A DNA stretch of 64,000 nucleotides from Deltaproteobacteria bacterium (GTDB lineage Bacteria > Bdellovibrionota_B > Oligoflexia > Oligoflexales > Bog-1112). Positions 3,074 to 49,772 of the stretch are shown here, piece by piece. Every line of letters begins with the position of its first letter. The stretch's first letter is position 1. The position numbers and the translations under genes were made by a program. Under the pieces are notes generated by a model, which was not told the DNA's origin, searched no databases, and saw only the letters and a list, made by a program, of their open reading frames with translations. The DNA lies in NCBI GenBank assembly GCA_016186945.1, contig JACPKR010000008.1, forward strand, positions 1 through 64,000, in the 5' to 3' direction.

Positions 3074-3080
3074 GGTTACC

Positions 3081-4670: not shown

Positions 4671-4778
4671 AAGCAAGTTACCTTTTAAGTTAAAGTTTCG
4701 ATGTTATCTATTTTATAAAAAGATTATAGAACTTGATTGGGGTGGTCAAACTTTTTTTCGCAAAAAAAGAGAAGGGAG

Positions 4779-8790: not shown

Positions 8791-11700
8791 ATGCAAGAAG
8801 ATGAAAACAAATTGAGTTTTAAAAGACGAGATTTTGTTCGAGGTCTAGCAGCAACCGGTGCATTTGTTTCTGCACAGGCTGCTTTTGGTGCACCCATACG
8901 TTACTTTAAACCCACGCATGTAGAAAACCCACTCGCCTTCTATCCAAACAGGGACTGGGAAAAAATTTACAGGAATCTGTTTGAGCCTGACTCTTCGTTT
9001 GTCTTTTTGTGTGCTCCGAACGACACACATAATTGTTTGTTGAGAACCTATGTCAAGAACGGTGTCGCTGTACGCATCGGACCCACGTACGGTTATGGAA
9101 AAGCGACTGATCTCGACGGCAATAAGGCATCCTCACGATGGGATCCCAGAATTTGCCAGAAGGGTTTGGCAATGGTTCGTCGCTTCTACGGAGACCGTCG
9201 TGTTAAAGCTGCTATGGTGCGGAGGGGTTACAGACAGTGGGTCAACGATGGATTCCCGAGAGATGCGAAGACAGGAAAGCCAGACGCTAAGTACTTCGAA
9301 AGGGGGAAGGATAAATGGGTGAGAGTCGAGTGGGATGAGGCCTACGACATTACCGCACGCGCCCTCGACAATATTACTCGTACCTATTCGGGAAAGCAGG
9401 GAGAGTCCTACCTCCGTGAGCAAGGCTATGATCCTGCCATGATTGAAGCCACGGAGGGTGCAGGAACCCAGACTATAAAATTTCGTGGTGGCATGGCGTT
9501 TCTTGGCTCCACCCGCATCTTCGGCCTTTACCGTTTTTGTAACATGCTTGCTTTGCTCGACTCGAAAATACGAGGGGTGGATGAAAGCAAGGCGGTTGGC
9601 GCTCGTGGTTGGGATAGTTATAGTTGGCATACAGACCTGCCTCCCGGCCATCCAATGGTAACAGGGGCACAGACGAACGATTTCGACCTCTTCGCGGCCG
9701 ACCATGCGAATCTTATTCTTGCATGGGGTATGAATTGGATTACCACCAAAATGCCCGATTCGCATTGGATGACGGAAGCGCGTCTCAAAGGTGCAAAAAC
9801 TGTTGCCATCACCGTGGAATACAGCGCCACCGCTTCAAAAACCGATGAAGTTGTTATTATCCGCCCAGGGACCGACCCGGCTTTCGCCCTGGGTCTGGCC
9901 CAGGTCATCATTGACAGGAAGCTCTACGACGAAGAGTTCGTGATGAACAACACCGACCTGCCGTTCCTTGTTCGCACCGATACTCTTCAACCGCTTCGCC
10001 CTGAAGAAGTGATAGAGGGATACAAAGCCCCTGAATTGAAAAGTTTGAAAGTCTTGAAAAAAGGCGACAAACCAAACAATCTTCAAGACAATATCCAGTC
10101 AATTCCTGAAGCCATGCTGGGCGAATTCAAGCCTTTCGTAGTCTTCGACAAGAAATCAAAGAAATTAGTCGCCGTCACGCGTGATGAGTACGGTGCCCAC
10201 TTCATGAAGACGGGAGTCAAGCCAGATCTGAAAGCCAGTCAGAAGGTAAAAACTGTCGATGGCAAGACGGTGGAAGTCAGGACAATCTTCGATCTTACCG
10301 TCGAATACCTGAACAAGAATTTCACGCCCAAGCAAACTTCCAAACTTACCAACGCTCCTGAAAAGGCCATCATCTCCCTTGCCACACAGATTGCGAAGAA
10401 CAAGGAAAAGACACTCTTTGCTTGTGGGATGGGTCCCAATCAGTTCTTCAACTCGGATTTGAAGGATCGAGCTATTTTCCTCGTCGCAGCGTTGACGCGC
10501 AACATCGGCTTTCCAGGAGGTAACGTCGGCAGCTATGCAGGCAATTACAGGGCAGCATTGATAGGTGGTGAGCCTGTTTATGCGATGGAGGATCCCTTCC
10601 ACCCGCAACTGGAAAAGGGAGGAAAGGTCAAGCTCGGCAAATTCCTTCATTACGAGTCCCTTCACTACTTCAACTACGGTGACAGACCTTTGCGTATAGG
10701 CAAAACCCTTTTCACGGGCAAAGGGCATGTACCGACACCGACGAAGGCCATGTGGCTTAACAATTCCAACTCCGTCATCGGTAACATCAAGTGGCATTTC
10801 GATGTTGTTAACAATACGCTTCCCAAGTTGGAAATGATCGCCTATGCCGACTGGTGGTGGACAGGATCTTGCGAGTATTCGGACATCGTTTTTGGTGTCG
10901 ACAGTTGGGGTGAATTCAAGGCCCCCGACATGTGTGGCTCATGCACGAACCCGTTCGTGTCCATTTGGCCACAGACTCCCCTACCTCGTATTTTTGACAC
11001 AAAGACTGACATGGACATACTTGCTGGTGTGGCTAAGCGTTTGGGAGAAATCATCGAAGAGCCACGAATGGAGCAAATGTGGAAATTTGTGTTCGACAAC
11101 GACGTCCATGAGTACCTTCAACGCATCATCGATCATTCCTTCACGTTGAAAGGTTACAATATTCACGATCTTGAGAAAAAAGCACAGGAAGGCATTCCCG
11201 CTCTGATGCAAAACCGCACCTACCCACGCATTTCATCTTACGAACAAGCGAAGTCGGAACAACCCTGGCATACGAAATCGGGACGTCTGGAATTCTACAG
11301 ACCGGAGCAGGAATTCCTCGATAACGGAGAAAACCTGATCATCTATCGCGAGCCAATCGACTCGACACCGTACGAACCCAATGTGATTGTCGCCCACGAG
11401 CACATCGCCATCAGACCGAAGAGTCCCAAAGACTTGGGTCTTGATCCGAACGATTTGTCGGTGGAAGTTAGGCAGGTTCGTAACGTCCTCAAAACACCGG
11501 ACGAAGTCGTCAACTCAAAACACCCGCTGCGGCTGAAACTTTACACCCACGTCTACCACACTCCCAAGTACCGGCACGGGGCGCACTCTACACCTGTTGA
11601 CACGGACTATACGTCTGTCTGGTTCGGACCCTTTGGTGACGTTTACCGTCATGACAAACGGATGCCCTCCTGCACAGAAGGCTTTGTCGACATCAACCCA

Positions 11701-12267
11701 CTCGATGCCAAGGAACTGAAGCTGGAAGACGGGGACTACGTTTATGTCGACGCGGATCCGGAAGATCGTCCCTACAGGAATTTCAAGAAAGATACGGAGG
11801 AATATAAGGTCGCTCGCCTGATGTTACGTGTCCGCTACTACCCTGGCACACCACGAGGGATTGCACGCACTTGGCACAACATGTATGGCGCAACGTTCGG
11901 AAGCGTTCGCGCTCACGAAAGTCGCGCTGACGGTTTGGCGAAAAGTGCGGAAACAGGGTACCAATCGATGTACCGATACGGAAGCCATCAAAGCGCCACC
12001 CGTGCCTGGCTGCGTCCCGTTCACATGACGGAAACACTGGTACACAAAGGTATGTTTGGTCAGGAAATTGGCAAAGGCTTTGCCCCAGATATTCACTGTC
12101 CGGTTGGTGCGCCACGAGAAGCATTCGTCAAGTTCACCAAAGCAGAAGATGGTGGAATGGGTGGCCAAGGAAAATGGCGTCCTGCATCGCTCGGTTTCCG
12201 TCCGACTTACGAAAATGTGGCAATGAAAGAATATTTGAAAGGCAGCTTTCTTAAAGTGAAAGCTTAA
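8791..12267 (+). CDS. Tat-exported molybdopterin oxidoreductase, nitrate reductase / nitrite oxidoreductase-type alpha subunit (NarG/NxrA-like)
   Basis: Catalytic Mo-bisMGD subunit of a type II DMSO-reductase-family enzyme, predicted to face the periplasm. The N-terminus carries a twin-arginine signal (KRRDFVRG, then a hydrophobic stretch to about residue 33). The FS0 iron-sulphur site reads C74-x3-D78-x3-C82-x39-C122, with Asp at a position that is Cys in cytoplasmic NarG. The probable Mo ligand is Asp282 in WHTDLPPG, aligned with the CDLPP Asp of Nar[16 protein letters not shown] and [15 protein letters not shown] follow. Size (1158) and segments resemble the outward-facing pNar/NXR clade more than NarGHI. 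The ATG has AAAAGGGG upstream. Beta, gamma and chaperone genes follow with gaps of 10-14 nt. Nitrate is the likeliest substrate or product. Chlorate, selenate or another relative of this family cannot be excluded. Confidence 0.88.
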
Positions 12268-12281
12268 GGGGAGAAACGAAC

Positions 12282-13412
12282 ATGGCAAAAGTTAAAAATT
12301 GGCAAATCAATCGTGAGATGGAATACCCTTACGAGGAACATAGGCCGAAAAAACAGTGGGCGATCGTTTTCGACCTCAACAAATGTATCGCCTGTCAAAC
12401 CTGCTCTATCGCATGTAAGACGACTTGGACCAGCGGCAAGGGCCAGGAGTACATGTTCTGGAACAACGTCGAAACAAAGCCTTACGGAAGTTACCCTCTG
12501 GCTTATGACCTTCGCGTCCTGGAACAGCTCGGCGCGCAGGAGTGGGAGAAACAGAAACCCTACCAAGGGAAAACTATTTTCGAAGCTGCACCCCCCAATG
12601 AGCGGGTTGTCCATTTTCATCCGAAAGATGAAGACTGGATGTATCCAAACATAGGTGAGGATGACTGCACGAAAAATGTGCCCGCTGGCGATCATTTGGA
12701 ACTTCCGCACGACAAGTGGTTTTTCTACCTGCCGAGGACTTGCGCTCACTGCACCTACCCCGCTTGCCTTTCCGCCTGTCCCCGGAAGGCAATCTACAAA
12801 CGGGAGGAAGATGGAATCGTCCTGATCGACCAGTCCAGGTGCAAAGGTTACGGGGAATGCGTACGAGCTTGCCCCTATAAAAAGTCGATGTACAACCCTT
12901 ACACTAGGGTCAGTGAGAAGTGCGTAGGCTGCTACCCCGCAGTGGAGCAAGGAAAACAACCTATGTGCGTGCAGAACTGCATCGGTAAAATTCGCGTCAT
13001 GGGCTTCATCAACCCGCCGTGGAAAGCAAGGGAAGACAACCCGATCGACTACCTCGTACATAAAAAACAGATTGCTCTCCCTTACTACCCGCAACTTGGG
13101 CTGGAGCCAAACATTTACTACGTTCCCCCCATTCATGCAGACCGTAAATATCTGCGTCAGATGTTTGGTCCCCATGTTGATGACGCGATTGAACGTTACA
13201 AGAAACTAAAGGAAGATACGAAAACACAGGGTCTGCTCGTCCTCATGGGCGGCACAGACAAAATCATGCACAGCTTCAAAGTCAACGACAGAACAGCGTT
13301 CGGCTACGACGAAAAAGGGGAGGAAGTGGTAAGCAGTCCTCTCGTCGAACCTTTGATTGAACGCCCCGCCTTTGATACGAAGGTCGGTGCCATCCGTAAC
13401 AATACACCGTAA
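12282..13412 (+). CDS. Four-cluster iron-sulphur beta subunit (NarH/NxrB-like)
   Basis: Transfers electrons between the Mo subunit and the haem-b subunit. Cys groups: C35/C38/C41/C45, C154/C157/C162/C166, C187-Y190-C193-C197 and C214/C217/C229/C233. In the third group Tyr190 stands where a fourth Cys would be, as Trp does in NarH, which suggests one [3Fe-4S] cluster. The phrases KGQEYMFWNNVETKPYG, CPRKAIYKREEDGIVLIDQ and RQMFGPHVDDAIERY match what I know of NxrB/pNarH proteins of the NXR clade. It has no signal peptide of its own, so export with the Tat-bearing alpha subunit is inferred. Ribosome site GGGGAG lies 14 nt after the alpha stop. Length is 376 residues. Confidence 0.92.
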   Translation: MAKVKNWQINREMEYPYEEHRPKKQWAIVFDLNKCIACQTCSIACKTTWTSGKGQEYMFWNNVETKPYGSYPLAYDLRVLEQLGAQEWEKQKPYQGKTIFEAAPPNERVVHFHPKDEDWMYPNIGEDDCTKNVPAGDHLELPHDKWFFYLPRTCAHCTYPACLSACPRKAIYKREEDGIVLIDQSRCKGYGECVRACPYKKSMYNPYTRVSEKCVGCYPAVEQGKQPMCVQNCIGKIRVMGFINPPWKAREDNPIDYLVHKKQIALPYYPQLGLEPNIYYVPPIHADRKYLRQMFGPHVDDAIERYKKLKEDTKTQGLLVLMGGTDKIMHSFKVNDRTAFGYDEKGEEVVSSPLVEPLIERPAFDTKVGAIRNNTP

Positions 13413-13422
13413 GGAGGCTGAT

Positions 13423-14271
13423 ATGAAATTTCTCGATAGAAAATTGGTAATAGGTCTAAGTGTCTTTTACTCACTCAACGTAACAGCAATCGTAGCTCCC
13501 TCCGTAAAAGGGGATTTAAGCAAGCCAAGTTTGGATGAGACAATCTGGGCGACAGCTAAAGAAGAAACCGTTACGCTCATGGCGCAGCCCATGGCTATAC
13601 CTCGACCCGCAGAGACAGCAACAGCACAGGTTAAGGTAAAGGCGGTGCATAACGATTCGTGGATTGCCTTCCGTCTTAGCTGGGAGGATAAAGAGAAAAG
13701 TGAAGCGGGCAAACTGGGCGAGTTTTCCGATGCTGTTGCTGTGCAATTTCCTGTAAAGGACAACAAAAGCCCTCCGCCTGTTTTCATGGGGATGAAAGAT
13801 AACCCCGTGCATATTTTCCACTGGCGTGCGCAATACCAGATCGATAAGGAAAAAGGCAAGAGGGAGATGAAGGATATTTACCCCAACATGAATCCAGACA
13901 TGTACCCGATGGAATTCAAAGACGAGGGCCATCTGACAGGTTTGACGGATGAAAAGCGGGAAATATTCTCACACGGCCGAGCCGCAGGAAACCCACAGTC
14001 GTACGCAAAAGCAGGTGTGGATGAAATCTTCGCAGAAGGGTTTGGCACTAGCTCGGTGATCAAGAATGTCGAAGCCGTTGCACATGGAGAATGGCAGAAG
14101 AGCGGCTGGACCGTCGTCATTTCCCGTCCTCTGGTGAGAGAAGAAGGCTCACACCTTAAAGTTGGTGAGGACACCTTTGTCGGGTTCGCTGTCTGGCAGG
14201 GTGGCAAAGATGAAGTCGGTTCACGTAAGTCTGTAACCATGCAATGGACCCCACTGTCCATCGCAAAATAA
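13423..14271 (+). CDS. Haem-b gamma subunit of type II DMSO-reductase-family enzyme (EbdC/SerC/ClrC-like)
   Basis: A 282-residue exported subunit, predicted to carry one haem b and pass electrons to or from soluble periplasmic cytochrome c. It has a Sec-type signal peptide (residues 1 to about 24). The body is the beta-sandwich seen in the ethylbenzene/selenate/chlorate enzymes. The axial ligands there are Met and Lys. Candidates here are Met122 or Met124 (FMGMKDNP) and Lys269 (SRKSVTMQW). ATG 13423 has AAGGAGG just upstream. The open frame begins earlier inside the beta gene, but that start is not credible. No NarI-like membrane subunit follows. Confidence 0.85.
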   Translation: MKFLDRKLVIGLSVFYSLNVTAIVAPSVKGDLSKPSLDETIWATAKEETVTLMAQPMAIPRPAETATAQVKVKAVHNDSWIAFRLSWEDKEKSEAGKLGEFSDAVAVQFPVKDNKSPPPVFMGMKDNPVHIFHWRAQYQIDKEKGKREMKDIYPNMNPDMYPMEFKDEGHLTGLTDEKREIFSHGRAAGNPQSYAKAGVDEIFAEGFGTSSVIKNVEAVAHGEWQKSGWTVVISRPLVREEGSHLKVGEDTFVGFAVWQGGKDEVGSRKSVTMQWTPLSIAK

Positions 14272-14281
14272 AGGAACTTCC

Positions 14282-14968
14282 ATGAAAACAGAAGCTAGGG
14301 AATTTCTGACCGCTTCGTTGTTGTCTTCTTACCCAGACGCTCAATTCGGAGACTACGTAGCTGAATTATTGAAAGATGAGCTTTTGGAACTCCCAGAGAG
14401 CTTGAGAGCTATGGTGGAGGAATTCATCGCTAGCGAAGACAGCCTGGACAACCTTCGTTCGGAATATATCGACCTTTTCGATCGTGGGCGCTCGTCTAAC
14501 CCCCTGTACGAGACAGAGTATGGTCGGGCAAGAGCGATGGTCAAGGGACACGAACTAGCAGACATCAGTGGATTCTACAAGGCGTTCGGCTTGGAGTTCG
14601 GGGTTGACGGCACTCAAAAAGACATGGTCGACCACGTTGCAATCGAACTTGAGTTCTACGCTCTTCTTCTGCTGAAACAGGATCATCTCGTCAAGGATTC
14701 CGAAGGCTCGTCCGTTGTCCTCGATGCGCGCAAGAAATTCCTGCAGGAACATCTGGGACGTTTCGTGGGAGCCATCACCCAGCGCCCAGGGGTCAAGGAA
14801 AGTCCGTTCTATTCAACGCTTTTCAACTGGTGCCATGATCTGATCCAAGAGGAATGCAGGGAATTGAGTGTGGAAGTCATCCCAGCAGATTGGATTACCG
14901 GTCAGCAGGAGCCTGAAATGACGGACTGCATGTTACGAGGGCCACAGCTCAATTCGTCAGTAGGGTAG
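14282..14968 (+). CDS. TorD/NarJ-family molybdoenzyme assembly chaperone
   Basis: A 228-residue all-helical cytoplasmic protein in the position of a delta subunit or private chaperone. It would bind the alpha-subunit signal and guide Mo-cofactor insertion before Tat export. Typical TorD-family features are the YIDLFDRG segment, the acidic Y(E)TEYGR stretch, DISGFYKAFGLE and DHVAIELEFYALLLLK. It starts 10 nt after the gamma gene with AAGGAAC upstream. It is probably absent from the mature enzyme. The gene ends at the border of a family B repeat, which may end the operon transcript. Confidence 0.88.
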   Translation: MKTEAREFLTASLLSSYPDAQFGDYVAELLKDELLELPESLRAMVEEFIASEDSLDNLRSEYIDLFDRGRSSNPLYETEYGRARAMVKGHELADISGFYKAFGLEFGVDGTQKDMVDHVAIELEFYALLLLKQDHLVKDSEGSSVVLDARKKFLQEHLGRFVGAITQRPGVKESPFYSTLFNWCHDLIQEECRELSVEVIPADWITGQQEPEMTDCMLRGPQLNSSVG

Positions 14969-15803: not shown

Positions 15804-15907
15804 CAAAAACTGTGAAAACGATTTCCGTTATTATTTAAGCATCTGTAAATATTGGGCTATTCATTTTTTTTCTCGTTGATTTCCGTCCACCCTAGGAGTA
15901 GCTTATT

Positions 15908-15938
15908 GTCGACATTTGTCCACAGGAAAGGGGTCATT
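15908..15938 (+). promoter_or_regulatory. Leader motif shared with the molybdoenzyme operon
   Basis: gtcgacatt at 15908-15916, then gaaaggggtc just before the ATG at 15939. The molybdoenzyme alpha subunit has gtcgacatt 35 nt and gaaaaggggtc immediately before its ATG. The shared sequence suggests common control. The factor is unknown. Confidence 0.45.
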
Positions 15939-17576
15939 ATGAAAAGGCATTGCGTTCATCTTCTGTCTTTGTGTTTGTTTTTCTTCACCTTTATCGTCCC
16001 TCACGCTCGTGCTGCCGGTGATGTTGAGTTGGGGGAGGTGAATGCACAGGTTGCCGAAGTTCTTAAAACGGTTGTGGAACATGGGGCAGATGCGTTGCAT
16101 GACATGGGCATACAAGCCGACCCAAAGGCTGTAGCTACGGCCGTTCAGACTCTAGGTGCTGTAATCATCAAGTATCTACTAGGCGGCAACAAGTTGACAA
16201 AAGAGTGGTTAAGTCCTGAGGTTGATACGGCTTTTGGTAATTTCTTTCCTGCAGACACGAAAACCACCCAACTTGATAAAGCGACACAGATTATTTTGGG
16301 AGGATTACAGTGGAAGTCTCCCTACACTGCGTTGGCTGCGGATACTGCCATTTTCGGGGGTGGATTTCTCGGTATCTTGTCCTACACATTTGTAATCAAG
16401 AAGATGGAGAAATTGAACGGATTTGCAAAGACCGTTCTGGTCAATGCCCCCCTTATTACAGGTGCGCTCCCTCGTCTCCCCCTTGGATGGTATGCAAACA
16501 GAGCTGATGGTGGAGTGCTTTCCCTGCGAGTGGCCACTGGACTTGCGGCAGCAGGTTTGGCTGCCATTGCCGTACTTTCTCATTTTACAGATATCGAAAC
16601 AATTGAGGGGGCAGGCGACCCCCTTTACTGGGCATGGTTGGGTGCAGGTCTGCTGATAGGTGCAGGTATCTCAACTTATTCTCCCGGGGTAATAAACGCC
16701 AAGAACTGGTTTCTCAAAGAACAGGCTGGAGTGGCCCAAGGTATTTTTGGTGGTCTGGGGAACATGCTCCCAGCTGTCTTAGCAGCAACACTTGCTCATG
16801 TAATTTCTGGTCTGGGGTACACGTGGACCTATGCATTATGGACGGGCGTCTTGGGTGTTTTCGCACTAGTGACGTTCCCCTTCCTCGCAACACCTCCCGC
16901 ACAGGTCGCTGGAAGAGCCGCTTTGGCCACGGGTCTGAAACTACCAGCAGCAAACTTCTGGACGACTGCCGGGAAGGCTCTCATTTCTCCTGATAAGTGG
17001 ATTTACAGTTATTTGTACCTGGCTTCTTTCGGTGCTTTCATTTCCATGCCCAATATACTTGGGTTTTACAACAGTGATCCACATTACACTCCAACCCCCT
17101 ACGCCTTAGAGAGTACACATTTAGGCTACATAATCGCGGGCTATATTTTCGTATCCTCACTGACTAGGAGTCTGTCCGGTATTCTCGTCGACAAAATTGG
17201 TGGCCCGATTGTTGCTATTTCCGGACTCCTTGTAGGAACTCTGGGAACCGTGCCCTTGGCGCTTCACGCACGTCCATTCGATGGTGATCATGTCGGATCT
17301 TCTATAGCTTGGTGGTCCGGCCTAGCAGGAATGGGGTTAGGTTGGGGCGCAGCGATGGCAGCAACCTTCGGGTGGATCGCTCAGAAAACGCCAGCTGCCG
17401 AGTTTGGCATAACAGGCGGGATGGCCGGAGCTATTGGCGCGTGCGGATTTATCAACTCATGGCTGGCCTACTACATGGGGGGATGGTCTTCTACTGCTAT
17501 TTCGGGAACGGCAGTTCTAGCTGCAGCAGGGCTGGCTTCCTATCAGCGATGGTATCGACCCGCTGAGACCCACTAA
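15939..17576 (+). CDS. narK: NarK-like major facilitator transporter (nitrate/nitrite) with extra N-terminal signal region
   Basis: A 545-residue, 12-helix MFS protein. NarK-type marks are the first-half RLPLGWYANR segment and two glycine-rich helices, GIFGGLGNMLP and GGMAGAIGACGF, matching the paired nitrate-signature helices of NarK/NrtP. Before the first MFS helix sit a cleavable-looking signal peptide (ending AHARAAG) and about 110 residues of helical, probably periplasmic sequence, which is unusual for the family. The start is ATG 15939 (GAAAGGGG site). The upstream open frame is ignored because the ribosome site and shared leader favour this one. With the nearby molybdoenzyme it probably moves nitrate and/or nitrite. 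Confidence 0.8.
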   Translation: MKRHCVHLLSLCLFFFTFIVPHARAAGDVELGEVNAQVAEVLKTVVEHGADALHDMGIQADPKAVATAVQTLGAVIIKYLLGGNKLTKEWLSPEVDTAFGNFFPADTKTTQLDKATQIILGGLQWKSPYTALAADTAIFGGGFLGILSYTFVIKKMEKLNGFAKTVLVNAPLITGALPRLPLGWYANRADGGVLSLRVATGLAAAGLAAIAVLSHFTDIETIEGAGDPLYWAWLGAGLLIGAGISTYSPGVINAKNWFLKEQAGVAQGIFGGLGNMLPAVLAATLAHVISGLGYTWTYALWTGVLGVFALVTFPFLATPPAQVAGRAALATGLKLPAANFWTTAGKALISPDKWIYSYLYLASFGAFISMPNILGFYNSDPHYTPTPYALESTHLGYIIAGYIFVSSLTRSLSGILVDKIGGPIVAISGLLVGTLGTVPLALHARPFDGDHVGSSIAWWSGLAGMGLGWGAAMAATFGWIAQKTPAAEFGITGGMAGAIGACGFINSWLAYYMGGWSSTAISGTAVLAAAGLASYQRWYRPAETH

Positions 17577-17587
17577 GCGTTCTGCTT

Positions 17588-22474: not shown

Positions 22475-24076
22475 CTATATCTGATACTCATAGGGTCCAT
22501 GCGTAACAACTGGCTCACGAATGAAATTCTCATGCGGAGGAGGAGAGGAAGTCTTCCATTCCAAAGTTTCAGCACCCCAAGGATTGTCGGGAGCCTTTTT
22601 GCCCCAGAGCAATCCATAAATTAGGTAAAAGAGAGCAAGCACAAACCCAAGAGCAATCAAATAGGAACCGACCGTCGATATTTGATTAAGATTTGTGAAA
22701 CGCTCAGGATACGAATAATACCTCCGAGGCATACCCTGCATCCCCAAGATGAACTGAGGGAAAAAAGTCACATTGAATCCAAGGAAAATAAGAAACCAGG
22801 AGATTTTAGCCGGAAATTCCGCATACATCCTCCCTGAAAACTTGGGAAACCAATAGTGAAGTCCAGCCATGAACGCCATGATGGCCCCACCCACCATGGT
22901 GTAATGAAAATGAGCCACGACAAAATAGGTGTCCGTTAAATGAACGTTGATGGACACCGTCGCTAGGAAAACGCCTGTCAACCCACCCACCAGAAACACA
23001 AATATGAAGGCCATGGCGTACAACATGGGGGTCGTCAATCGAATGGACCCCTGGTACATCGTGGCCACCCAGTTGAAAATCTTAATCCCCGTTGGCACCG
23101 CAACAAACATCGTTAGAAGTGAGAACACAAAGTTAGCTGTCTCAGACTGTCCAGAGACAAACATATGATGGCCCCAGACTATGAACGATACAACCGCAAT
23201 TCCAAAGACGGCACCAGCCATGCCCCAGTAACTGAAAACGTTTTTGCGAGAAAAAACGGGGATCACTTCGTTGATAATCCCCATCGCCGGTAAAATCATA
23301 ATGTATACAGCGGGATGTGAGTAAAACCAAAAAAAATGCTGAAAAAGAACTGGGTCACCCCCCAACTTCGCATCGAAAATCCCGATCCCCATCAGGCGCT
23401 CGAAGACAAGGAGCATGAGCGTCAGCGCAATGACTGGCGTTGCCAACATCTGAATGATGTTCGTCGCATAGATACACCACACAAATAACGGCAAGCGCCC
23501 GAATGTTAAACCCGGCGCCCTGAGCTTATGCACCGTTGTGATGAAATTCAACGCGGTCAGAATCGCTGCAAAACCCATGAAAAACGCACCCGTCACAACC
23601 ATGATGGTCGCGGTACTTGTACGTATGGAATAGGGAGCATAAAAGGTCCAACCTGTGTCGATTCCCGAAGTAAACAGCGTCGCCACGGCCAAGATGACAC
23701 CGAAGAGGAACACATAATAAGAAAGCAAATTAAGCTTGGGAAAAGCAACGTCCTTCGCTCCCACCTGCATAGGAAGGATCAGGTTACCAAGAGCAGAGGG
23801 AATCAGAGGCAGGATCACCATAAAAACCATGATAGAACCGTGATAGGTAAACGCCTGATTGAATCCATCGGGGTCAAGGAAAACCTTCCCGGGCTTCCAC
23901 AGTTCCGTTCTCACCATCAGCGCAGCAATCCCCCCAACCAGAAAAGCTGAAAGGATCGTAAAAAGATATAACAACCCAATTCGCTTATGATCGAGCGTAT
24001 AAAGCCATGACCACAAACCCCGCTTGTGGGTTAAATAGTTATCATGACTTCCATGGGCAGGTGCATCGTGAGACAT
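22475..24076 (-). CDS. coxA: Cytochrome c oxidase subunit I, A2-type haem-copper oxidase
   Basis: Catalytic subunit with the low-spin haem, the haem-CuB centre and proton channels. 12 membrane helices, 533 residues. Visible sites are the cross-linked His-Tyr in [16 protein letters not shown], the CuB pair in [10 protein letters not shown], and the haem ligands in VAHFHYTM. The YS before HPAVY, with no Glu in the HPEVY position, is the mark of the A2 subfamily. ATG 24076 with AAGGAG upstream, 22 nt from coxB. As coxB carries a cytochrome c domain, this is a caa3-like terminal oxidase. Confidence 0.97.
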
Positions 24077-24098
24077 AATTGCTCCTTGTCAGGGAAAA

Positions 24099-25073
24099 CT
24101 ATTCTTTTAAATTCTTAATGAATGCGATTAAGGCGTTCAACTCTTCTTCTGCAATGAGACCTTTGAATGTCGGCATAACGGGTGGGAAGCCTTTTACAAG
24201 TTTATCTTTTGTTGTCCCAGGGTATTCAATAGACTCGCGGACATAATTCTCATCAACAAGGATATGAGACCCGTCTGACATTTCCTCTTGCTTACCCCAA
24301 ATCCCCTTAAAGGATGGACCGATCCCTTTTACCCCGTCAACACTGTGGCAAGCAAAGCAACCTTTGTCCGTGTAAAGCTGCTGGCCCCATTCGACAAGAC
24401 TGGCAGGGCGCTCCTTGGGTGCACCCTTCCCCTTCTGGAACGTCTCCCACTCACTGAGGGAGACAACCTTAACCGTTCCCATCATTTTGGAATGTGCATT
24501 ACCACAATATTCCGCACAGAAAATAGTATGCTCACCTTGCTCGTTAGCTTGGAACCATACTTTTGTATACATGCCGGGGACGACATCATTTTTGATACGG
24601 AAATCGGGAAGGAAAAAACTGTGGATGACGTCATCGGAAGTCATAATAAGTCGGACGGGAATTTTTTCAGGAACGATAAGCTCCCCGATCGTTGTTTTGC
24701 CGTTGTCATATTGAAACTGCCACAGCCATTGCTTGCCTATGACCTTAATGTCATAGGCACTTTCCGGTGCATCGACCATCCGTTTGTAGACGATCCAGCC
24801 CCATGCAAAAATAATCATGACAAGGATGGTGGGAATCGTGATCCAGAGGAATTCCAGCTTATCATTATGAACAATATTACCTACTTTTTGCCCCGGCTCC
24901 TTTTCTCTATATTTAATGAGAAACCAGAGCATCGAACCGACAACGATCACAAAAAAGACAACGCTGACTCCAACCAGGAAGAGAAACAAAGTATCCCAAT
25001 TGCCAGCAACGTCGGATGCTACGGGGGGCAACATTTGTGCGAAAGCGGTCTCCATCGCGTGTCGATCCTTCAT
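24099..25073 (-). CDS. coxB: Cytochrome c oxidase subunit II with fused cytochrome c domain
   Basis: Accepts electrons from cytochrome c at the CuA centre. Two membrane helices (about 27-55 and 75-97) precede the CuA domain with its ligands in HSFFLPDFRIK and CAEYCGNAHSKMMG. A C-terminal cytochrome c domain (about 230-324) has GCFACH and the distal Met in PPVMPTFKGL. 324 residues. The start is either ATG 25073 or ATG 25055. The second has AAGGA in front, the first keeps more sequence and was kept. First gene of the cluster. Confidence 0.95.
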   Translation of the reverse strand: MKDRHAMETAFAQMLPPVASDVAGNWDTLFLFLVGVSVVFFVIVVGSMLWFLIKYREKEPGQKVGNIVHNDKLEFLWITIPTILVMIIFAWGWIVYKRMVDAPESAYDIKVIGKQWLWQFQYDNGKTTIGELIVPEKIPVRLIMTSDDVIHSFFLPDFRIKNDVVPGMYTKVWFQANEQGEHTIFCAEYCGNAHSKMMGTVKVVSLSEWETFQKGKGAPKERPASLVEWGQQLYTDKGCFACHSVDGVKGIGPSFKGIWGKQEEMSDGSHILVDENYVRESIEYPGTTKDKLVKGFPPVMPTFKGLIAEEELNALIAFIKNLKE

Positions 25074-43416: not shown

Positions 43417-44421
43417 TTGAAAGCCATGGTACTGGAAGAGGACAAACGCCCCCTCATCCTGCAGGAGATCCCCCTTCCTCAACCCACTCATGAGCAGGTT
43501 CTTGTAAAAATCTCTGCCTGTGGTGTTTGCCGCACAGACTTGCACATTGTTGATGGCGACCTTCGTCCTCCCCTCCCTCTTATTCCAGGTCATCAGATTG
43601 TTGGGACGGTTGAGGCGGCAGGAAAACATGTCAAACATTATAAAATAGGCGATCGCGTCGGCATTCCTTGGTTAGGAAAGACCTGTGGTCAATGCATTTT
43701 TTGTAAAAGTGATCGGGAAAACCTTTGCGACAATGCTCTTTTCACAGGTTATCAAGTCAACGGAGGGTTTGCGGAATACTGCGTCGCTGATGCACGATAC
43801 TGCTTTCCCCTTGCGCCCCAACTCGCTGATCTGCAAGTTGCGCCACTCCTCTGTGCGGGGCTTATTGGTTACCGCGCCTATAGGATGACAGGCAATGCGC
43901 AAAGGCTCGGCTTTTATGGCTTCGGCTCATCTGCTCATATACTTACCCAACTTGCCCGCTTCGAAAAGCGAGAGGTTTTCGCGTTCACAAGAGAAGGCGA
44001 CGTGGAAACACAGTCCTTCGCCCGATCCTTGGGCGCATCCTGGGCGGGTGGCTCAGACAGCTCTCCACCTAACCCCCTTGATGCAGCGATCATCTTCGCT
44101 CCCGTCGGAGCGCTTATTCCCAAAGCTCTCAAGGTTCTCAGAAAAGGTGGCATCATTGTCAGTGCCGGTATTCACATGAGTGAAATTCCCTCGTTTCCCT
44201 ACAAAGATTTGTGGGGCGAGAGAAAAATCATGTCTGTCGCAAATCTTACGAGACGTGATGGGGAAGATCTGCTTGCTATCGCACCCAAGGTTCCCATAAA
44301 AACCATAGTTCAAACATATAGGTTGGAGGACGCCAACGAGGCGCTTAACGATATTCGCACAGGCAGATTGCAAGGGAGTGCGGTCCTTGACCTGTCGTTG
44401 TTTGGGGGCAAAAAGTTATGA
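43417..44421 (+). CDS. Zinc-dependent alcohol dehydrogenase (AdhP-like)
   Basis: A 334-residue medium-chain dehydrogenase. Catalytic zinc CGVCRTDLHIVDG, GHQIVGTVE; structural zinc CGQCIFCKSDRENLC. The NAD-binding region YGFGSSAHIL departs from GxGxxG. Likely oxidises or reduces alcohols/aldehydes, with threonine-derived products one possibility from its position. TTG 43417 is taken as start: GGGAGG lies 7 nt upstream, and it gives MKAMVLE, the usual beginning. It is coupled to tdh (stop 43415). Confidence 0.87.
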   Translation: MKAMVLEEDKRPLILQEIPLPQPTHEQVLVKISACGVCRTDLHIVDGDLRPPLPLIPGHQIVGTVEAAGKHVKHYKIGDRVGIPWLGKTCGQCIFCKSDRENLCDNALFTGYQVNGGFAEYCVADARYCFPLAPQLADLQVAPLLCAGLIGYRAYRMTGNAQRLGFYGFGSSAHILTQLARFEKREVFAFTREGDVETQSFARSLGASWAGGSDSSPPNPLDAAIIFAPVGALIPKALKVLRKGGIIVSAGIHMSEIPSFPYKDLWGERKIMSVANLTRRDGEDLLAIAPKVPIKTIVQTYRLEDANEALNDIRTGRLQGSAVLDLSLFGGKKL

Positions 44422-45533
44422 GTCTTTACCTCCGGCAGACCTTGCTTCCCGAGATAGGCACAAAAGGCCAGGAGCTTCTACGCTCAAGCAAGGTCCTCAT
44501 CGTGGGAGTCGGAGGACTCGGTTGCCCCGCTGCCCTCTATCTCGCAGGGGCAGGAGTAGGAACGCTCGGCCTTATAGATGACGACAAAGTTTCTCTCAGC
44601 AATCTTCACCGGCAGATCCTTTTCACACACGCGGATGTGGGTGCTTCCAAAGCAGTCGTTGCGCAAAAGCGCCTAGCCGCCTTCAACCCAACCCTTCGCG
44701 TGGAAGCGATCACGGAGCGTCTTACAGCCGCAAATACCCTCAATCTTATGCAAGACTTTGATCTGGTTATAGACGGCACAGACAATTTTCCTGCTAAGTT
44801 TCTAATTAACGATGGGGCTGCGAAGTTGGAAATTCCCGTCGTCTATGGGGCCATCTCTCAATTTGAAGGGCAGGTGGCAGTCTTTTCGGCAAAACGCCAT
44901 GCCTGTTACCGTTGCTTTCGTCCTAAACCACCGCTTCACTATGTTCCCAACTGTGCCGAGGCAGGAGTCCTTGGTTCTGTAGCAGGTTTGGTGGGAACGC
45001 TCCAGGCGACGGAAGCCCTCAAGTGCCTTCTGTCAGCCCACACTCCAAGTTTATGCCCACAGTTTGGGAAACTCTACATCGTAAACACGAAGACGATGGA
45101 ATTCTCAGCGTTTCAAATTTCTAAGAATCGGGAGTGTCCCGTTTGCTCTCGCCCTCCCGATCAAATTGTCATAAAGGAGGAGACTATGGATCATTGTTCA
45201 ACTGGTTGTCAGTGTAGCCAACTTGCCTCTAAGCAGGAAATAGACACCGAAGCGTTGCTGCGTGACGATTACTTCAAGCGCTGTCAGCTCATCGACGTTA
45301 GAACTCAGGAGGAATGGGACGAAGGCCATATCGCTAGTGCTCTTCACTGGCCCTTGTCACGGATTGAAGGAGGTGAGCTTCCACCGTTCGCATCAGATAA
45401 GCCCCGTATCTTATACTGTCGCAGCGGGGGTCGTTCTAGTCGAGCACTCACGCTTCTTGCTGAAAAAGGGATTAAAGATGTCTCGCACTTAAAGCAAGGT
45501 TTCCTTTCCTGGAAAGGACCGGTCGCCCTGTAG
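44418..45533 (+). CDS. MoeB/ThiF-type adenylyltransferase fused to rhodanese (MoeBR/MoeZ-like)
   Basis: A 371-residue fusion. The N-terminal E1-like domain (about 1-255) with GVGGLGCPAALYLAGAG, the Zn Cys pairs CYRCF and CPVC, and an Asp in VIDGTDNFPAKF adenylates the C-terminal Gly of MoaD or ThiS. The C-terminal rhodanese domain (about 275-371), with its active-site Cys in LYCRSGGRSS, would pass sulphur. Between them lies a Cys-rich linker, CSTGCQCSQ. Overlaps adh by 4 nt. With mo-genes on the other strand it probably thiocarboxylates MoaD at 46914. Confidence 0.9.
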   Translation: MSLYLRQTLLPEIGTKGQELLRSSKVLIVGVGGLGCPAALYLAGAGVGTLGLIDDDKVSLSNLHRQILFTHADVGASKAVVAQKRLAAFNPTLRVEAITERLTAANTLNLMQDFDLVIDGTDNFPAKFLINDGAAKLEIPVVYGAISQFEGQVAVFSAKRHACYRCFRPKPPLHYVPNCAEAGVLGSVAGLVGTLQATEALKCLLSAHTPSLCPQFGKLYIVNTKTMEFSAFQISKNRECPVCSRPPDQIVIKEETMDHCSTGCQCSQLASKQEIDTEALLRDDYFKRCQLIDVRTQEEWDEGHIASALHWPLSRIEGGELPPFASDKPRILYCRSGGRSSRALTLLAEKGIKDVSHLKQGFLSWKGPVAL

Positions 45534-45863
45534 CGGACGTTTCTGTTTCAGAGAAAAAGCATCCACTTCGAAACGAACCTTTAGAAAGGTTGCATCCTCC
45601 AAAGGAAACTGCCACTTAAGTTCGGCGTCGTGCAATGGGCCGCTTGTCGAAACTTTCTCCAGTGATTCCTTGCTCAGAACGAGGGTCAAGACGTTGTCAG
45701 CAAGGGAAACCTGTGAATCTTTGTCGGAAACCTTGACAGAAAACGTAAAAACACCATGAGGAAAATAAACGCGTTCTTCAAGCGCTTCCCCCTCCTTCAG
45801 TTTAGCAAATTCGTTTCTATGAACGCGGAACCGCACTAAACCGCGTGAAAGTCTGACGTTCAT
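45489..45863 (-). CDS. Hypothetical protein in Mo-cofactor cluster, DUF7009-like
   Basis: A 124-residue beta-rich cytoplasmic protein. Its beginning MNVRLSRGLVRFRVHRNEFAKLKEG has the strand pattern (xLRLxxxEVxxLxxG) I associate with DUF7009 proteins, often near molybdopterin genes, though this is tentative. Overlaps mobA by 4 nt (ATGA) and the convergent MoeBR gene by 45 bp. ATG 45863 with GAGGG upstream. Coupling to mobA suggests a role in cofactor supply, unproven. Confidence 0.65.
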   Translation of the reverse strand: MNVRLSRGLVRFRVHRNEFAKLKEGEALEERVYFPHGVFTFSVKVSDKDSQVSLADNVLTLVLSKESLEKVSTSGPLHDAELKWQFPLEDATFLKVRFEVDAFSLKQKRPLQGDRSFPGKETLL

Positions 45864-46462
45864 ACGGAAACCCTCCTCATCTGTTCCCATTGGACAGGCG
45901 TGTTGACGTTGTAAAAACATTCCAGATCATAAAGTGTAGCATCCAATAGGTTTACGTCCAAGCTAAGCAAAAGTTGTTTGATGGAACGCTTAGACTGAGG
46001 AACATGTTCGCGACACATCGAGGAGACGCTAGTCTTGACGCGCCGGTTAACCTGTAAGTATAGAGGAAATTCGTAACCCTGAAACATCGCAGCCTCATAG
46101 CCACTCCCTGAAACAATCAGGTTACGCAACATGTTGGACGTGATCGCAGGCATATCAATGGGGACCAGGATCAAACTTAGATGATCCCGTGGGCCGAGGT
46201 AACTTAGAACGGACTCCAGTCCCCCAATAGGCCCTATGTTTAATAGCCTGTCTGGTAAACACGGATAACCTTCAAGGTTACCACTGATAAGAATCTCCCT
46301 ATCAAGTTGTGATGTACCGAACATGAGAGTTTCACGCAAAAGAGCCAGGGAACGGTCAATAAGGCGCTGGCCTTCAAACTCTAGAAAAGCTTTATTGGTA
46401 CCCATTCTGGACGAACGCCCACCAGCCAGGACAACTCCGACCATGTCTTGTGACGAATTCAC
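45860..46462 (-). CDS. mobA: Molybdenum cofactor guanylyltransferase
   Basis: Attaches GMP to molybdopterin to form the MGD cofactor needed by the molybdoenzyme at 8791. About 200 residues. VLAGGRSSRMGTNKAFL nucleotide-binding motif near the start and VPIDMPAI metal region. GTG 46462 with GGAGGGG upstream gives a GTGA overlap with the moaE stop and is preferred to TTG 46483. Confidence 0.9.
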   Translation of the reverse strand: MNSSQDMVGVVLAGGRSSRMGTNKAFLEFEGQRLIDRSLALLRETLMFGTSQLDREILISGNLEGYPCLPDRLLNIGPIGGLESVLSYLGPRDHLSLILVPIDMPAITSNMLRNLIVSGSGYEAAMFQGYEFPLYLQVNRRVKTSVSSMCREHVPQSKRSIKQLLLSLDVNLLDATLYDLECFYNVNTPVQWEQMRRVSV

Positions 46463-46911
46463 CGACTCCCCTCCTTCCCGCAAAGAGCATGACCTTGCAA
46501 CCAGTCTGTTTCACCCGTTTCGTAATGCTCTTTTTTCCAGATCGGCGCTCTCACTTTCAACTCTTCGATGATGTAACGGGAAATCTGGTAAGCTTCCTCA
46601 CGGTGGGGAGTGCTCACGGCTATGCAAACACTCACGTCCCCAACCTTAAGTTTTCCCTCCCGGTGGACGACGATCATTTTCGCTCGCCCCTCGAAACGGT
46701 CTCTCGCCTCTTCACAAATTTGTCGCAACACTTTCACCGCCAGCGGTGCAAAGATATCATACGAAACCGCAAGAACTTTCTTCCCATGGTTATGATTCCT
46801 CACGAGACCGAGAAAATACACTTGCGCGCCATGTTCATAAGTTCCAAAATCCCTCAGGATCTCGTCCGCCTTGATTGGCTCGTCTGTGATTCTACATACA
46901 AGTTCTTCCAT
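46459..46911 (-). CDS. moaE: Molybdopterin synthase catalytic subunit
   Basis: Adds the dithiolene sulphurs to precursor Z, together with MoaD. 150 residues. FLGLVRNHNHGKKVLAVSYD and HREGKLKVGDVSVCIAVSTPHR carry the conserved Arg and His residues, and RAPIWKKEHYETGE has the catalytic Lys pair. ATG 46911 directly after the moaD stop with GGAGG in the moaD end. Confidence 0.96.
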   Translation of the reverse strand: MEELVCRITDEPIKADEILRDFGTYEHGAQVYFLGLVRNHNHGKKVLAVSYDIFAPLAVKVLRQICEEARDRFEGRAKMIVVHREGKLKVGDVSVCIAVSTPHREEAYQISRYIIEELKVRAPIWKKEHYETGETDWLQGHALCGKEGSR

Positions 46912-46913
46912 CC

Positions 46914-47177
46914 CTAGCCTCCACACACAGGTGGTAGCACCGCAATTTCACAGTCCCTACTGAATCGCGCGTCTCGTTCCAAGATCGTATCCTCGTCTGC
47001 AAACGCAGCATCTTCAAGCAACTGTGAATCGAACTCAGACGCAATCTTCCTAAGTGAAGAAGCCAGAAACGTTTTAACCGTCGTCAAATCCGATCCGCTT
47101 GGAACCTGAATTTCAAGAAAGGGATCGCTATAAAAAGACCGGAAGCGTCCAAAGAGTCTTAGTTTCACCTTGATCAT
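46914..47177 (-). CDS. moaD: Molybdopterin synthase sulphur-carrier subunit
   Basis: An 87-residue ubiquitin-fold protein whose C-terminal Gly-Gly (PPVCGG) is adenylated and thiocarboxylated by MoeB. Start ATG 47177, followed by a KVKLRLFGRFRSF strand; FxRD..IAVLPPV end is typical. Upstream frame includes repeat and is excluded. First gene downstream of the family B element 5. Confidence 0.92.
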   Translation of the reverse strand: MIKVKLRLFGRFRSFYSDPFLEIQVPSGSDLTTVKTFLASSLRKIASEFDSQLLEDAAFADEDTILERDARFSRDCEIAVLPPVCGG

Positions 47178-47294: not shown

Positions 47295-48554
47295 TCAGAG
47301 CAAAACAAGCTCGACCACGTCTCCCTTCCTCAACTGTTTGCCTTCCTCAGGAAGAATGGCCCACGCGTTCGCATCGAGAAGCGAACTTACCATAAATGAT
47401 GCTTGGCCTGGTACGATCGTAAGTTCCGAGCCTTCCGGCGATGGGTGCCATCGGGCCTTCATAAAACACCGCAAACCTTCCGGTTTTTGAAAGTCATGAG
47501 TCAGACGAGCTTTCCATGGTGCGTTTAGGTTTTCCCCCAACATGGCCTGTAGGTAGGGCAGCACAAAAAAGCGAAACCCCACTGCTGTCGAAACAGGATT
47601 GCCGGGAAGGCCGAAACATACCGGCCCATGTTCAAATTCCGCAAAAAGAATCGGTTTCCCAGGTCGAATGGCCACCTTGTGAAAATGGATCCTTGCCTGC
47701 AGGTCGTTCAAACCTTTCAAGATGAAGTCATATTTGCCAACGGAAACTGCCCCGGTTGTTATGATAACGTCTGGCCCTTCCTCTAATAGAGACGTCATGA
47801 GACTGATGAAGCGATCGGGTTCATCGTGAACCGTCCCGTAAAATTTTGCCTCCACCCCAACTTGCTCAAGGGCAGCCATAAGGTAGGGGCCAGTCGAGTT
47901 ACGAATCATACCAGGCTCAAGCGTGACCTGGGTGTGAGGCACCAGCTCCTTTCCTGTCGAGATAACCGCGACTTTCAAACGTCTAACGGGAACGTCACTA
48001 ACCCCTAGACTGGCAAGAGCCAAAACGTCTGTCGGTACGAGTTTCCTCCCTGAGGGGATCAGGATTTGGCCCTCCTTAAAGTCTTCACCTTTCCTTCTAA
48101 TATTTGCCCCCGGTTTAACAGGGTGTCTGATAAACATTTTGTGAGTGCTCCCCTCGCAAAGAAGCACATCTTCAACCCGTACAACGGCGTCGAAACAATG
48201 GCCTTCCGGGAGGGGGGCGCCTGTCATGATTTCAACGGCATAGTTCCCAGCAGCTGGCTTCTCGATCAGAACGTCTCCCGCCGCAACACTCCCCATCACT
48301 GTGAACTCAAGCGGTGCCTCTGGTGTCGCCCCGGAACTCAGCGAAGATTGAAGAGCATAGCCATCCATAGCTGAGTTATCGAAAGAGGGGAGTGATTCCC
48401 TTGCATATAGATCGTCTGTCACAATTTTTCCTATTGCATCCCCTAACCCGAGCATCTTGGGGGAGCGACGGTTCCCTCGCCCCCCCAAACCCCCCTCTCC
48501 CTTAGAAAGAGCTACACCGCGGATTTTCTCAAAAGCTTCTCCATAGGAAATCAT
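47295..48554 (-). CDS. moeA: Molybdopterin molybdenumtransferase with in-frame repeat insert
   Basis: Inserts molybdate into adenylated molybdopterin. 419 residues: FDNSAMDGYALQ, the MTGAPLPEG loop, KPGANIRRKGEDFKEG, TTGAVSVGKYDF, and HKVAIRPGKP with the GLPGNPVST motif. Residues 18-33 (GEGGLGGRGNRRSP) are encoded by a 48-bp fragment of the family A arm, placed in the N-terminal helical region and keeping the frame. The start overlaps the moaCB stop by 4 nt. Confidence 0.95.
   Translation of the reverse strand: MISYGEAFEKIRGVALSKGEGGLGGRGNRRSPKMLGLGDAIGKIVTDDLYARESLPSFDNSAMDGYALQSSLSSGATPEAPLEFTVMGSVAAGDVLIEKPAAGNYAVEIMTGAPLPEGHCFDAVVRVEDVLLCEGSTHKMFIRHPVKPGANIRRKGEDFKEGQILIPSGRKLVPTDVLALASLGVSDVPVRRLKVAVISTGKELVPHTQVTLEPGMIRNSTGPYLMAALEQVGVEAKFYGTVHDEPDRFISLMTSLLEEGPDVIITTGAVSVGKYDFILKGLNDLQARIHFHKVAIRPGKPILFAEFEHGPVCFGLPGNPVSTAVGFRFFVLPYLQAMLGENLNAPWKARLTHDFQKPEGLRCFMKARWHPSPEGSELTIVPGQASFMVSSLLDANAWAILPEEGKQLRKGDVVELVLL
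48456..48503. repeat. Family A arm fragment inserted in-frame in moeA
   Basis: cttgggggagcgacggttcc and the following C-run match the arm of the long family A copies. 48 bp, exactly 16 codons. No core and no terminal repeats are present. Confidence 0.88.
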
Positions 48555-49534
48555 GGATGTCCTCCCCCTTTCGCAATATGGACCGCATGGGGCAATAGAG
48601 TTTCCAACGTTTCGATTCCTGCCTCAAGCGCCTGCGGCTTTCCTGGCAATGCGATCACTAAAGTTTGGCCAATGAGGCCCCCCTCACTTCCGCTAAGCCA
48701 GGATTTTTTGGTTTGTACAGCCCCTTTTTGTCGTAAAAGTTCACCGATACCCGGGACCGGTTTTGTGAAAAGTTTCGACAGCGTCACAAGTGTGACATCA
48801 CGAGGCCCCAACCCGGTACCGCCTGTTGTCACGACAAGGTCAGCCTGCTGAACCTCTACGAAATGCAAGACGGCCTCACGGATGCGTTCTCCCTCGTCGG
48901 GGACAAGCTTGGCGTCGAGAACAGCCGCACCGCGTTCTTCAAGTAGATGCCTGAGGCGAGGCCCAGAGTGATCTTCAGTCTCACCGCGTGCGCAACGGTC
49001 ACTTACCGTCAGGACACATGCGCGTATCTTTGCCAACGGATGCTCGACTTTCTTTTCAACCTTTTCAACGTTCTCGAATTTGGGATGCAGCCAGACACCT
49101 GATTTTCCCCCTTCTTTTCTCACCAGATGAATGTCTGACAGACAAAGGACAGGATCGACTCCCTTGCTAAGATCGTAAATCGCAAGAAGTGCTGCACTCA
49201 CTCCCGTCAGAGCTTCCATCTCTACACCCGTCTTTGCTGTTGTGAATGCTTCGCAGCTTACGGTGATCGAGTGATTGTCACTAAATTCGCAGCTCACCTT
49301 CACGCCGTCCAAGCCCAGAGGGTGACAGAGGGGAAGTATGTCGGAAGTCCTTTTAGCCGCTGCAATTCCGGCTAGTTCGGCCATTGCCAACACATCTCCT
49401 TTCGGCATCTGTCGCGAGCGGATACGTTGTAAAGTTTCCGCCGCCATGATGATCCTTCCCCGCGCAAGGGCACGGCGTCGTGTTGCTGTTTTTTCCGTTA
49501 CGTCTATCATGTGAAAGGAACTATGCTCGACCAT
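48551..49534 (-). CDS. Bifunctional MoaC-MoaB molybdenum cofactor protein
   Basis: A 327-residue fusion. Residues about 1-160 are MoaC (cyclic pyranopterin monophosphate synthase): HMIDVTEKTATRRRALARG, LPLCHPLGLDGVKV, KTGVEMEALTGVSAALL. Residues about 175-327 are MoaB/MogA-type: VLTVSDRCARGETEDHSGP and TTGGTGLGPRDVT, which adenylate molybdopterin. So one protein covers two steps. ATG 49534 with AAAGGA upstream. First gene of moaCB-moeA. moaA is not in the window. Confidence 0.93.
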   Translation of the reverse strand: MVEHSSFHMIDVTEKTATRRRALARGRIIMAAETLQRIRSRQMPKGDVLAMAELAGIAAAKRTSDILPLCHPLGLDGVKVSCEFSDNHSITVSCEAFTTAKTGVEMEALTGVSAALLAIYDLSKGVDPVLCLSDIHLVRKEGGKSGVWLHPKFENVEKVEKKVEHPLAKIRACVLTVSDRCARGETEDHSGPRLRHLLEERGAAVLDAKLVPDEGERIREAVLHFVEVQQADLVVTTGGTGLGPRDVTLVTLSKLFTKPVPGIGELLRQKGAVQTKKSWLSGSEGGLIGQTLVIALPGKPQALEAGIETLETLLPHAVHIAKGGGHP

Positions 49535-49595
49535 TCCCATCCTTTCTGTGTGTTTATAAGTAAGGTGGTTTAATATCACAAAGAAAGACAGATAT

Positions 49596-49772
49596 ATGTC
49601 TAAAAAATGCACGGTTCTAAATACGGAAGCATGTCCGGCGAGAGAAAGCGTCGCCTTCAGAAATTTGGAAAAACTTTCTTTGTTTAATAGCTACTTAAGA
49701 AATGTTGTGTATCCAAATCTTGCAAAGCAAGATTGTCCGAATAAAAATGATCTAACCAACGAAACATTTTAA
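49596..49772 (+). CDS. Possible small protein upstream of nrdJ
   Basis: A 58-codon frame (MSKKCTVLNT... to LTNETF) ending 19 nt before the nrdJ ATG. It contains three Cys and no signal or known motif. Ribosome site is weak (AAAGAAAG). Internal hairpin atcttgcaaagcaagat (near 49717) suggests it could instead be a regulatory leader. Low confidence. Confidence 0.3.
   Translation: MSKKCTVLNTEACPARESVAFRNLEKLSLFNSYLRNVVYPNLAKQDCPNKNDLTNETF

Follow-up and report, generated by a model that had tools for sequence, protein, structure and literature searches.

A pNar-type operon for a predicted periplasmic nitrate/nitrite oxidoreductase in a genome related to Bdellovibrionota/Oligoflexia

The window, meaning the whole 64,000-nt stretch of DNA that was analysed, contains a complete four-gene operon in the order alpha-beta-gamma-delta. 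The four open reading frames (ORFs) lie on one strand, with intergenic gaps of 10–14 bases, as follows.

8791..12267, + strand: alpha, NxrA/pNarG-type Mo-bisMGD catalytic subunit, 1158 aa, with a Tat signal; best PDB match 7b04_B (NxrA), 922 bits; FS0 residues C74/D78/C82/C122, N77 and D282
12282..13412, + strand: beta, NxrB/pNarH-type four-cluster Fe-S subunit, 376 aa, without a signal; best PDB match 7b04_A (NxrB), 379 bits
13426..14271, + strand: gamma, NxrC/EbdC-type haem-b subunit, 281 aa, soluble, with an N-terminal Sec-like signal; PF09459 (E 1.5e-30) and TIGR03477
14282..14968, + strand: delta, TorD/NarJ-type chaperone for inserting the Mo cofactor ahead of export by Tat; PF02613 (E 7.8e-19) and TIGR03482 (E 7.1e-23)

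The preliminary description had read this locus as a complete, outward-facing molybdoenzyme operon of the type II DMSO-reductase family with a TorD chaperone, and the present data bear it out on each point. In NCBIfam, each of the four proteins matched the corresponding type II DMSO-reductase model (alpha, beta, gamma or chaperone), in every case under the curated cut-off. The Kuenenia nitrite oxidoreductase (NXR) structure 7b04 was the top PDB match for alpha, beta and gamma alike (922, 379 and 91 bits), with next-family scores of 181, 223 and 57 bits; for alpha, NxrA at 922 bits compares with 181 for PcrA, 134 for EbdA and 123 for NarG. The Tat motif, read in the sequence, occupies alpha residues 9–18, and with this signal on alpha and none on beta the enzyme is predicted to be periplasmic. 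Gamma has a hydrophobic stretch at its N-terminus and no further membrane-like stretch. A search 5′ of alpha for an FNR-like box gave none that was convincing, promoter and terminator scans stayed near shuffle level, and Rfam and tRNA searches of the window returned no matches.

Alpha residues were mapped in a MAFFT alignment of 124 sequences, in which the Kuenenia reference is a 938-residue part. Kuenenia C67/N70/D71/C75/C115/D275, whose roles as FS0 ligands, substrate Asn and Mo ligand are described (PMC8387239), correspond to C74/N77/D78/C82/C122/D282 of the query. The FS0 ligand set is three Cys and one Asp, substrate Asn77 is present, and the Mo ligand is Asp282, so both the Asp-containing FS0 motif and the Mo ligand of the preliminary description map onto Kuenenia residues. 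Alpha has Asp78 and not the FS0 His ligand of cytoplasmic NarGHI. Beta carries 15 cluster Cys (35/38/41/45, 154/157/162/166, 187/193/197 with Tyr190, and 214/217/229/233) plus C129; in C187-x2-Y190-x2-C193 the Tyr stands at the NarH Trp position, as in Kuenenia NxrB, confirming the four-cluster beta with Tyr. The claim of a Met/Lys haem-b gamma was equally sound: in the PDB-match alignment Met121 and Lys268 stand opposite Kuenenia Met155 and Lys305, and neither varies among 65 gamma sequences.

Four near-active-site positions have been described as setting NXR apart from NAR (PMC12300631). At these positions the query is NXR-like twice (Asp78, Lys926), NAR-like once (Thr319, Thr being the NAR residue there; PMC12300631) and neither once (Met547). 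Thr319 and Met547 take the place of Kuenenia Asn312 and Glu527, both in the active-site vicinity. They occur in 99/99 and 98/99 pNar-side rows, respectively, whereas Nitrospira/anammox core NXR has Asn and Glu. Thr319/Met547 on the pNar side, Asn/Glu in Nitrospira/anammox and Thr/Ala in Nitrotoga-like sequences form a simple candidate marker. The Nitrotoga NxrA motif Y-4x-D-11x-QM (PMC6050957) is absent from query alpha, which has QT instead.

In a 53-row alpha tree, which like its 30-row companion is a quick tree without bootstrap and without Nitrospina among its rows, the query falls inside a 16-row clade (SH-aLRT 100) nested in a 44-row pNar side (100), and an 8-row core NXR side is separate from it (SH-aLRT 100). 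The 30-row tree, which included NarG, one Clr-like row (adjoining a chlorite dismutase gene) and one Ser/Pcr-like row, gave the same placement; the outgroup rows, whose long branches the program flags, lay outside with support of 100. Constraining the query subclade to join core NXR was 95 log-likelihood units worse (p-AU 3.8e-60, two trees compared). Identity as a Nitrospira/anammox core NXR is rejected by the SH-aLRT of 100 for both sides together with the AU test, identity as NarG by the trees and scores, as Clr or Ser/Pcr by the tree (one row each) and scores, and as Ebd on scores only (134 bits EbdA vs 922 NxrA), with Asn77 where Ebd has Ile. Alpha clustered with none of the NarG, Clr-like or Ser/Pcr-like rows and keeps its Mo ligand. 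Thirty columns split the two sides at at least 95% and, having been chosen for that property, are a description of the split and no test of it; a Nitrotoga-like locus, L148, matches the pNar side at 23 of them and the core at 2. L148 comes from our Burkholderiales-order sample and carries the Y-4x-D-11x-QM motif, and its genome holds a partial second match; we infer that it is Nitrotoga. Together these results support placing the enzyme on the pNar/Nitrotoga side of the NXR/pNar lineage, sister to Nitrospira/anammox NXR. The closeness to pNar and NXR enzymes proposed earlier therefore stands for the lineage and is narrowed to the pNar/Nitrotoga sister clade, at 37–40% identity to core NXR, union with which is rejected.

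A scan of genome contigs identified 446 encoding stretches, and 80 loci were retained. The nearest alpha relatives (66–78% identity; 65–77% on the full alignment) are from metagenome-assembled genomes (MAGs) labelled Bdellovibrionota/Oligoflexia and Myxococcota/Deltaproteobacteria, plus a few with other labels; the next (about 54–60%) are from Beggiatoa, Thioploca, Thiomargarita, Thioalkalivibrio, Rokubacteria and Planctomycetota. Nitrospirota fall into two groups, one with Nitrospira-type NXR at about 780–840 bits and 37–40% identity to query alpha, and a second at 1418–1664 bits and 54–62%. The earlier remark that the operon does not come from one of the well-known nitrifier groups holds, but with 446 relatives and like operons already published this is nothing special. 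Among eight genomes with close operon relatives, NirK was above cut-off in seven, NrfA in three and RuBisCO in none. One relatives' NorB is a cNOR (378 bits to 3o0r) and one a qNOR (565 bits to 3ayf); three more ORFs, close to the confirmed cNorB in length and in sequence at the N-terminus, probably encode cNorB too. These NirK and NOR genes favour denitrification in the relatives and are circumstantial for the query host. In 25 of the 27 clade loci with enough upstream sequence, an undescribed protein of ~265 aa with four invariant Cys is encoded directly 5′ of alpha; the gene was found in none of the other loci compared and is missing from the window. Several relatives continue from the operon into MoaA, a MoaC-MogA fusion, MoeA, MoaE, MobA and MoeB.

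Most of this cofactor set recurs elsewhere in the window, which also encodes the following.

1781–3244: isocitrate lyase, from ORF reading without a family search
3081–4676: malate synthase, from ORF reading without a family search
15852..17576, + strand: MFS transporter with weak NarK-family similarity, doubtful as a member of the system
22475..25073, − strand: caa3-type oxidase, a competing electron sink (subunit I, 22475–24076; subunit II with a cytochrome c domain, 24099–25073)
44418..45533, + strand: MoeB/ThiF-rhodanese protein, Moco/thio-carrier activation, with a homologue in relatives' operons
45860..46483, − strand: MobA-type protein, MGD synthesis
46477..46920, − strand: MoaE
47295..48554, − strand: MoeA, Mo insertion
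48551..49612, − strand: fusion of MoaC with a MogA/MoaB-type (MoCF_biosynth) domain, as also found directly 3′ of the operon in several relatives

The set at 44.4–49.6 kb equals that of the relatives minus MoaA, mostly inverted, and the host genome encodes a MoaA homologue elsewhere, on contig 20. Because only two PF00384 proteins were found in that genome, query alpha and one in an alternative complex III (ACIII)-like cluster, the Moco cluster of the window probably serves the query enzyme. As for the surroundings given in the preliminary description, the caa3-type oxidase was confirmed, and the glyoxylate shunt stands as two enzymes recognised by reading ORFs. The NarK-like transporter fared worse: its similarity to the NarK-family model is weak (71 bits, cut-off 312), it has no PDB match, and no homologue lies beside the relatives' operons, so NarK is rejected as a conserved operon partner.

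The host MAG comprises 2.66 Mb in 76 contigs (91.25% complete, 0.17% contaminated). Its one haem-copper oxidase is the caa3 enzyme of the window. A genome search detected no NirK, NrfA, RuBisCO or NOR; the check for CO2 fixation covered RuBisCO in this 91% complete genome. Besides the ACIII-like cluster, contig 54 encodes two multihaem cytochromes (an octahaem one of the HAO family and a tetrahaem one), a DsrP/NrfD protein and a Tat Fe-S protein close to DsrO/NrfC; contig 12 carries a Rieske/cytochrome b complex with two fused c haems.

We consider it likely that alpha, beta and gamma form a pNar-clade Mo-bisMGD nitrate/nitrite oxidoreductase in the periplasm and that its main work in vivo is to reduce nitrate. 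Delta would load apo-alpha with cofactor, Tat would export loaded alpha with beta as its passenger (a presumed hitchhiker), and gamma would leave through Sec. Electrons could leave quinol via ACIII or the Rieske/cytochrome b complex, reach a periplasmic cytochrome c and move on through the haem b of gamma, the Fe-S chain of beta and FS0 to Mo, where nitrate would be reduced to nitrite. The octahaem HAO-family cytochrome with its NrfCD-like partners could take nitrite further down; since NirK, NrfA and NOR were not detected in the host, the fate of nitrite rests on the putative activity of this cytochrome. Family membership alone does not fix the direction, because NXR enzymes work both ways (PMC8387239) and the same sister clade holds the NxrA of Nitrotoga, for which nitrite oxidation is proven (PMC6050957). 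Nitrate reduction is favoured because no RuBisCO was found in the host and because NirK and NOR occur in several of the nearest relatives. The pNar-side placement, the Thr319/Met547 pair, and the presence in the clade of Beggiatoa, Thioploca and Thiomargarita enzymes count for the same reading. NirK occurs in nitrite oxidisers too, Nitrotoga included.

Of the two directions that the preliminary description had offered, nitrite oxidation is the less probable, and we regard it as unlikely though worth keeping in view, because Nitrotoga NxrA lies in the same sister clade (PMC6050957). A hetero- or mixotroph would here oxidise periplasmic nitrite and pass the electrons via cytochrome c to the caa3 oxidase. 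That oxidase, the sole one, has a cytochrome c domain and lies 7.5–10 kb downstream of the operon; a search of the 91% complete genome detected no genes for the later steps of denitrification; the FS0 Asp and Lys926 in the active site match NXR; and L148, on the same side, has the QM motif. However, host RuBisCO was not found, denitrification genes occur in several of the nearest relatives, core NXR has other residues in place of Thr319 and Met547, the Nitrotoga QM motif is replaced by QT, and there is one operon copy here against two matches in most of the best-matching Nitrospira-type genomes. The broader proposal, that a non-autotroph related to Bdellovibrionota/Oligoflexia oxidises nitrite by means of this operon and forms, together with its Myxococcota/Bdellovibrionota relatives, a guild of heterotrophic nitrite oxidisers that has gone unrecognised, appears doubtful to us and distinctly improbable.

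There is a slim chance that the enzyme is reversible or detoxifying, serving nitrate/nitrite redox balancing or chlorate reduction instead of energy conservation. The family is bidirectional (PMC8387239), but the dedicated Moco cluster, ACIII and the Rieske/b complex suggest respiratory use, and chlorite dismutase was not recognised among the conserved neighbours of the relatives' operons. It is very improbable that the operon is a binning contaminant: an alpha homologue was absent from the other 57 genomes of the host phylum that were searched, but the operon sits inside a 103.9 kb contig of uniform GC, flanked by copies of a repeat found in 103 of 124 sequences searched from the host genome. 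A type II enzyme for selenate, chlorate/perchlorate or ethylbenzene shares the subunit plan, and gamma matches PF09459 (EB_dh) and TIGR03477, but this option is negligible given the alpha scores (922 bits NxrA vs 181 PcrA and 134 EbdA), the Asn77 that Ebd enzymes replace with Ile (PMC8387239) and the Clr-like and Ser/Pcr-like rows outside with support of 100.

Nitrate reduction is therefore our preferred reading, and it bears on how such genes are annotated. The nxr/nar annotation of MAGs serves to count nitrite oxidisers, and sequence alone gives no direction; this operon is a clean case, an nxr-like cluster from which an automated pipeline could call a nitrite oxidiser, although the denitrification genes of its relatives and its position in the clade point instead to nitrate respiration. 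The operon was not described in the open-licence papers searched. Nxr-like genes have been reported in heterotrophic MAGs with the direction left open (PMC9306079), and similar nxr-like operons in MAGs of organisms other than nitrite oxidisers, again with the direction unresolved (PMC9562985, PMC10732223). The enzyme is a well-preserved, ordinary member of a known, widespread family in an unusual host.

Among known systems, Kuenenia stuttgartiensis NXR-ABC (7b04) shares with the query the subunit plan, the FS0 set of three Cys and one Asp, Asn70, Asp275, the Met/Lys haem b and a gamma without a membrane anchor; it differs in alpha (39% identity; Asn312→Thr, Glu527→Met) and stands on the opposite side of the main NXR/pNar split. 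Candidatus Nitrotoga NXR, a member of the sister clade, likewise has a soluble gamma with a Sec signal, a Tat alpha and a chaperone gene in the locus (PMC6050957), but Nitrotoga-like L148 is about 49% identical to the query and has QM where the query has QT, and the query host, in which no RuBisCO was found, has a caa3 oxidase where Nitrotoga has cbb3. The nxr-like operons of Myxococcota/Bdellovibrionota MAGs (L004–L029, L038, L046, L074) have the alpha-beta-gamma-delta order of the window, with 65–78% alpha, 73–83% beta and 46–62% gamma identity; the window differs in having no four-Cys gene and in its Moco cluster, ~30 kb off and not directly 3′ as in several relatives. The pNar clade includes the nitrate reductase of Hydrogenobacter thermophilus (PMC6050957), and its Beggiatoa member has been termed a nitrate reductase (PMC8387239). 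The query host differs from these two in being a presumed heterotroph from a small phylum. The pNar-type enzyme of Beggiatoa sp. 4572_84 shares the query's clade at 57–58% alpha identity and is identical to it at all active-site positions compared.

In 25 operon loci of clade relatives (L004, L006, L007, L010-L025, L027-L029, L038, L046 and L074), the gene directly 5' of alpha encodes an undescribed four-Cys protein, as in this example:

L013 2535-3323, ~265-aa four-Cys protein, adjoining the alpha gene on its upstream side

All four Cys are invariant, and searches of Pfam and NCBIfam gave no family above threshold. The predicted structure is confident (pLDDT 90). In the model, the N-terminal part resembles TRAPP-Bet3/V4R/phenol-sensor folds, with a borderline best Z of 8.1, and the C-terminal part resembles NifU-like or CDF C-terminal domains (Z ~7). 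The window holds no counterpart of this protein. Two genes of the window are:

6656-8416, minus strand, 586-aa protein 5' of the operon
48551-49612, MoaC and a MogA/MoaB-type domain in one protein

The 586-aa protein had no match in Pfam and NCBIfam searches, and the same MoaC fusion is common to Bdellovibrionota relatives.

Genes for cytochromes, other electron-transfer proteins and CxxCH proteins were found in the window and elsewhere in the host genome:

L217 8486-12621 (contig 54), consecutive genes for an octahaem cytochrome of the HAO family, a tetrahaem cytochrome, a Tat Fe-S protein and a DsrP/NrfD membrane protein
L313 899-3108 (contig 12), genes for a Rieske protein and a cytochrome b
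Window 26147-27301, ~400-aa protein with a single N-terminal CxxCH
L253 17904-19142, ~400-aa protein with a single N-terminal CxxCH, adjoining the Rieske/b genes

The consecutive genes on contig 54 are a candidate nitrite reductase. The contig 12 cytochrome b carries a C-terminal extension with two c haems, and no cytochrome b of this family was found in the genomes of eight relatives. Neither ~400-aa CxxCH protein matched Pfam; we read both as putative monohaem porin-like proteins.

A high-copy dispersed repeat, with a unit of ~50-95 bp, is scattered over the window, and its copies include:

41-180
4772-4840
15710-15798
17584-17652
32127-32206
34599-34689
39684-39743
52093-52176
56668-56762
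60621-60678

The repeat contains a 9-bp inverted repeat (TTGGAGGAA...TTCCTCCAA) and is REP-like. Of 124 sequences searched, covering the window and 1.95 Mb of the genome, 103 contained the repeat; blastn gave 409 matches in all, possibly including split copies. The repeat also produces spurious N-termini in ORF lists, such as EEPAAQFPPNHLLA.

On Natronococcus occultus plasmid 2 (L002 6001-9485), a haloarchaeal pNar alpha match was found in two pieces and is without annotation in PLSDB's table, which is incomplete; the gene may be frameshifted, or may merely have been left out of that table. Five pNar-side alphas of Nitrospirota (L121-L125) have Cys in place of Asp at the FS0 position, and the FS0 Asp is therefore not universal in the pNar-side lineage.
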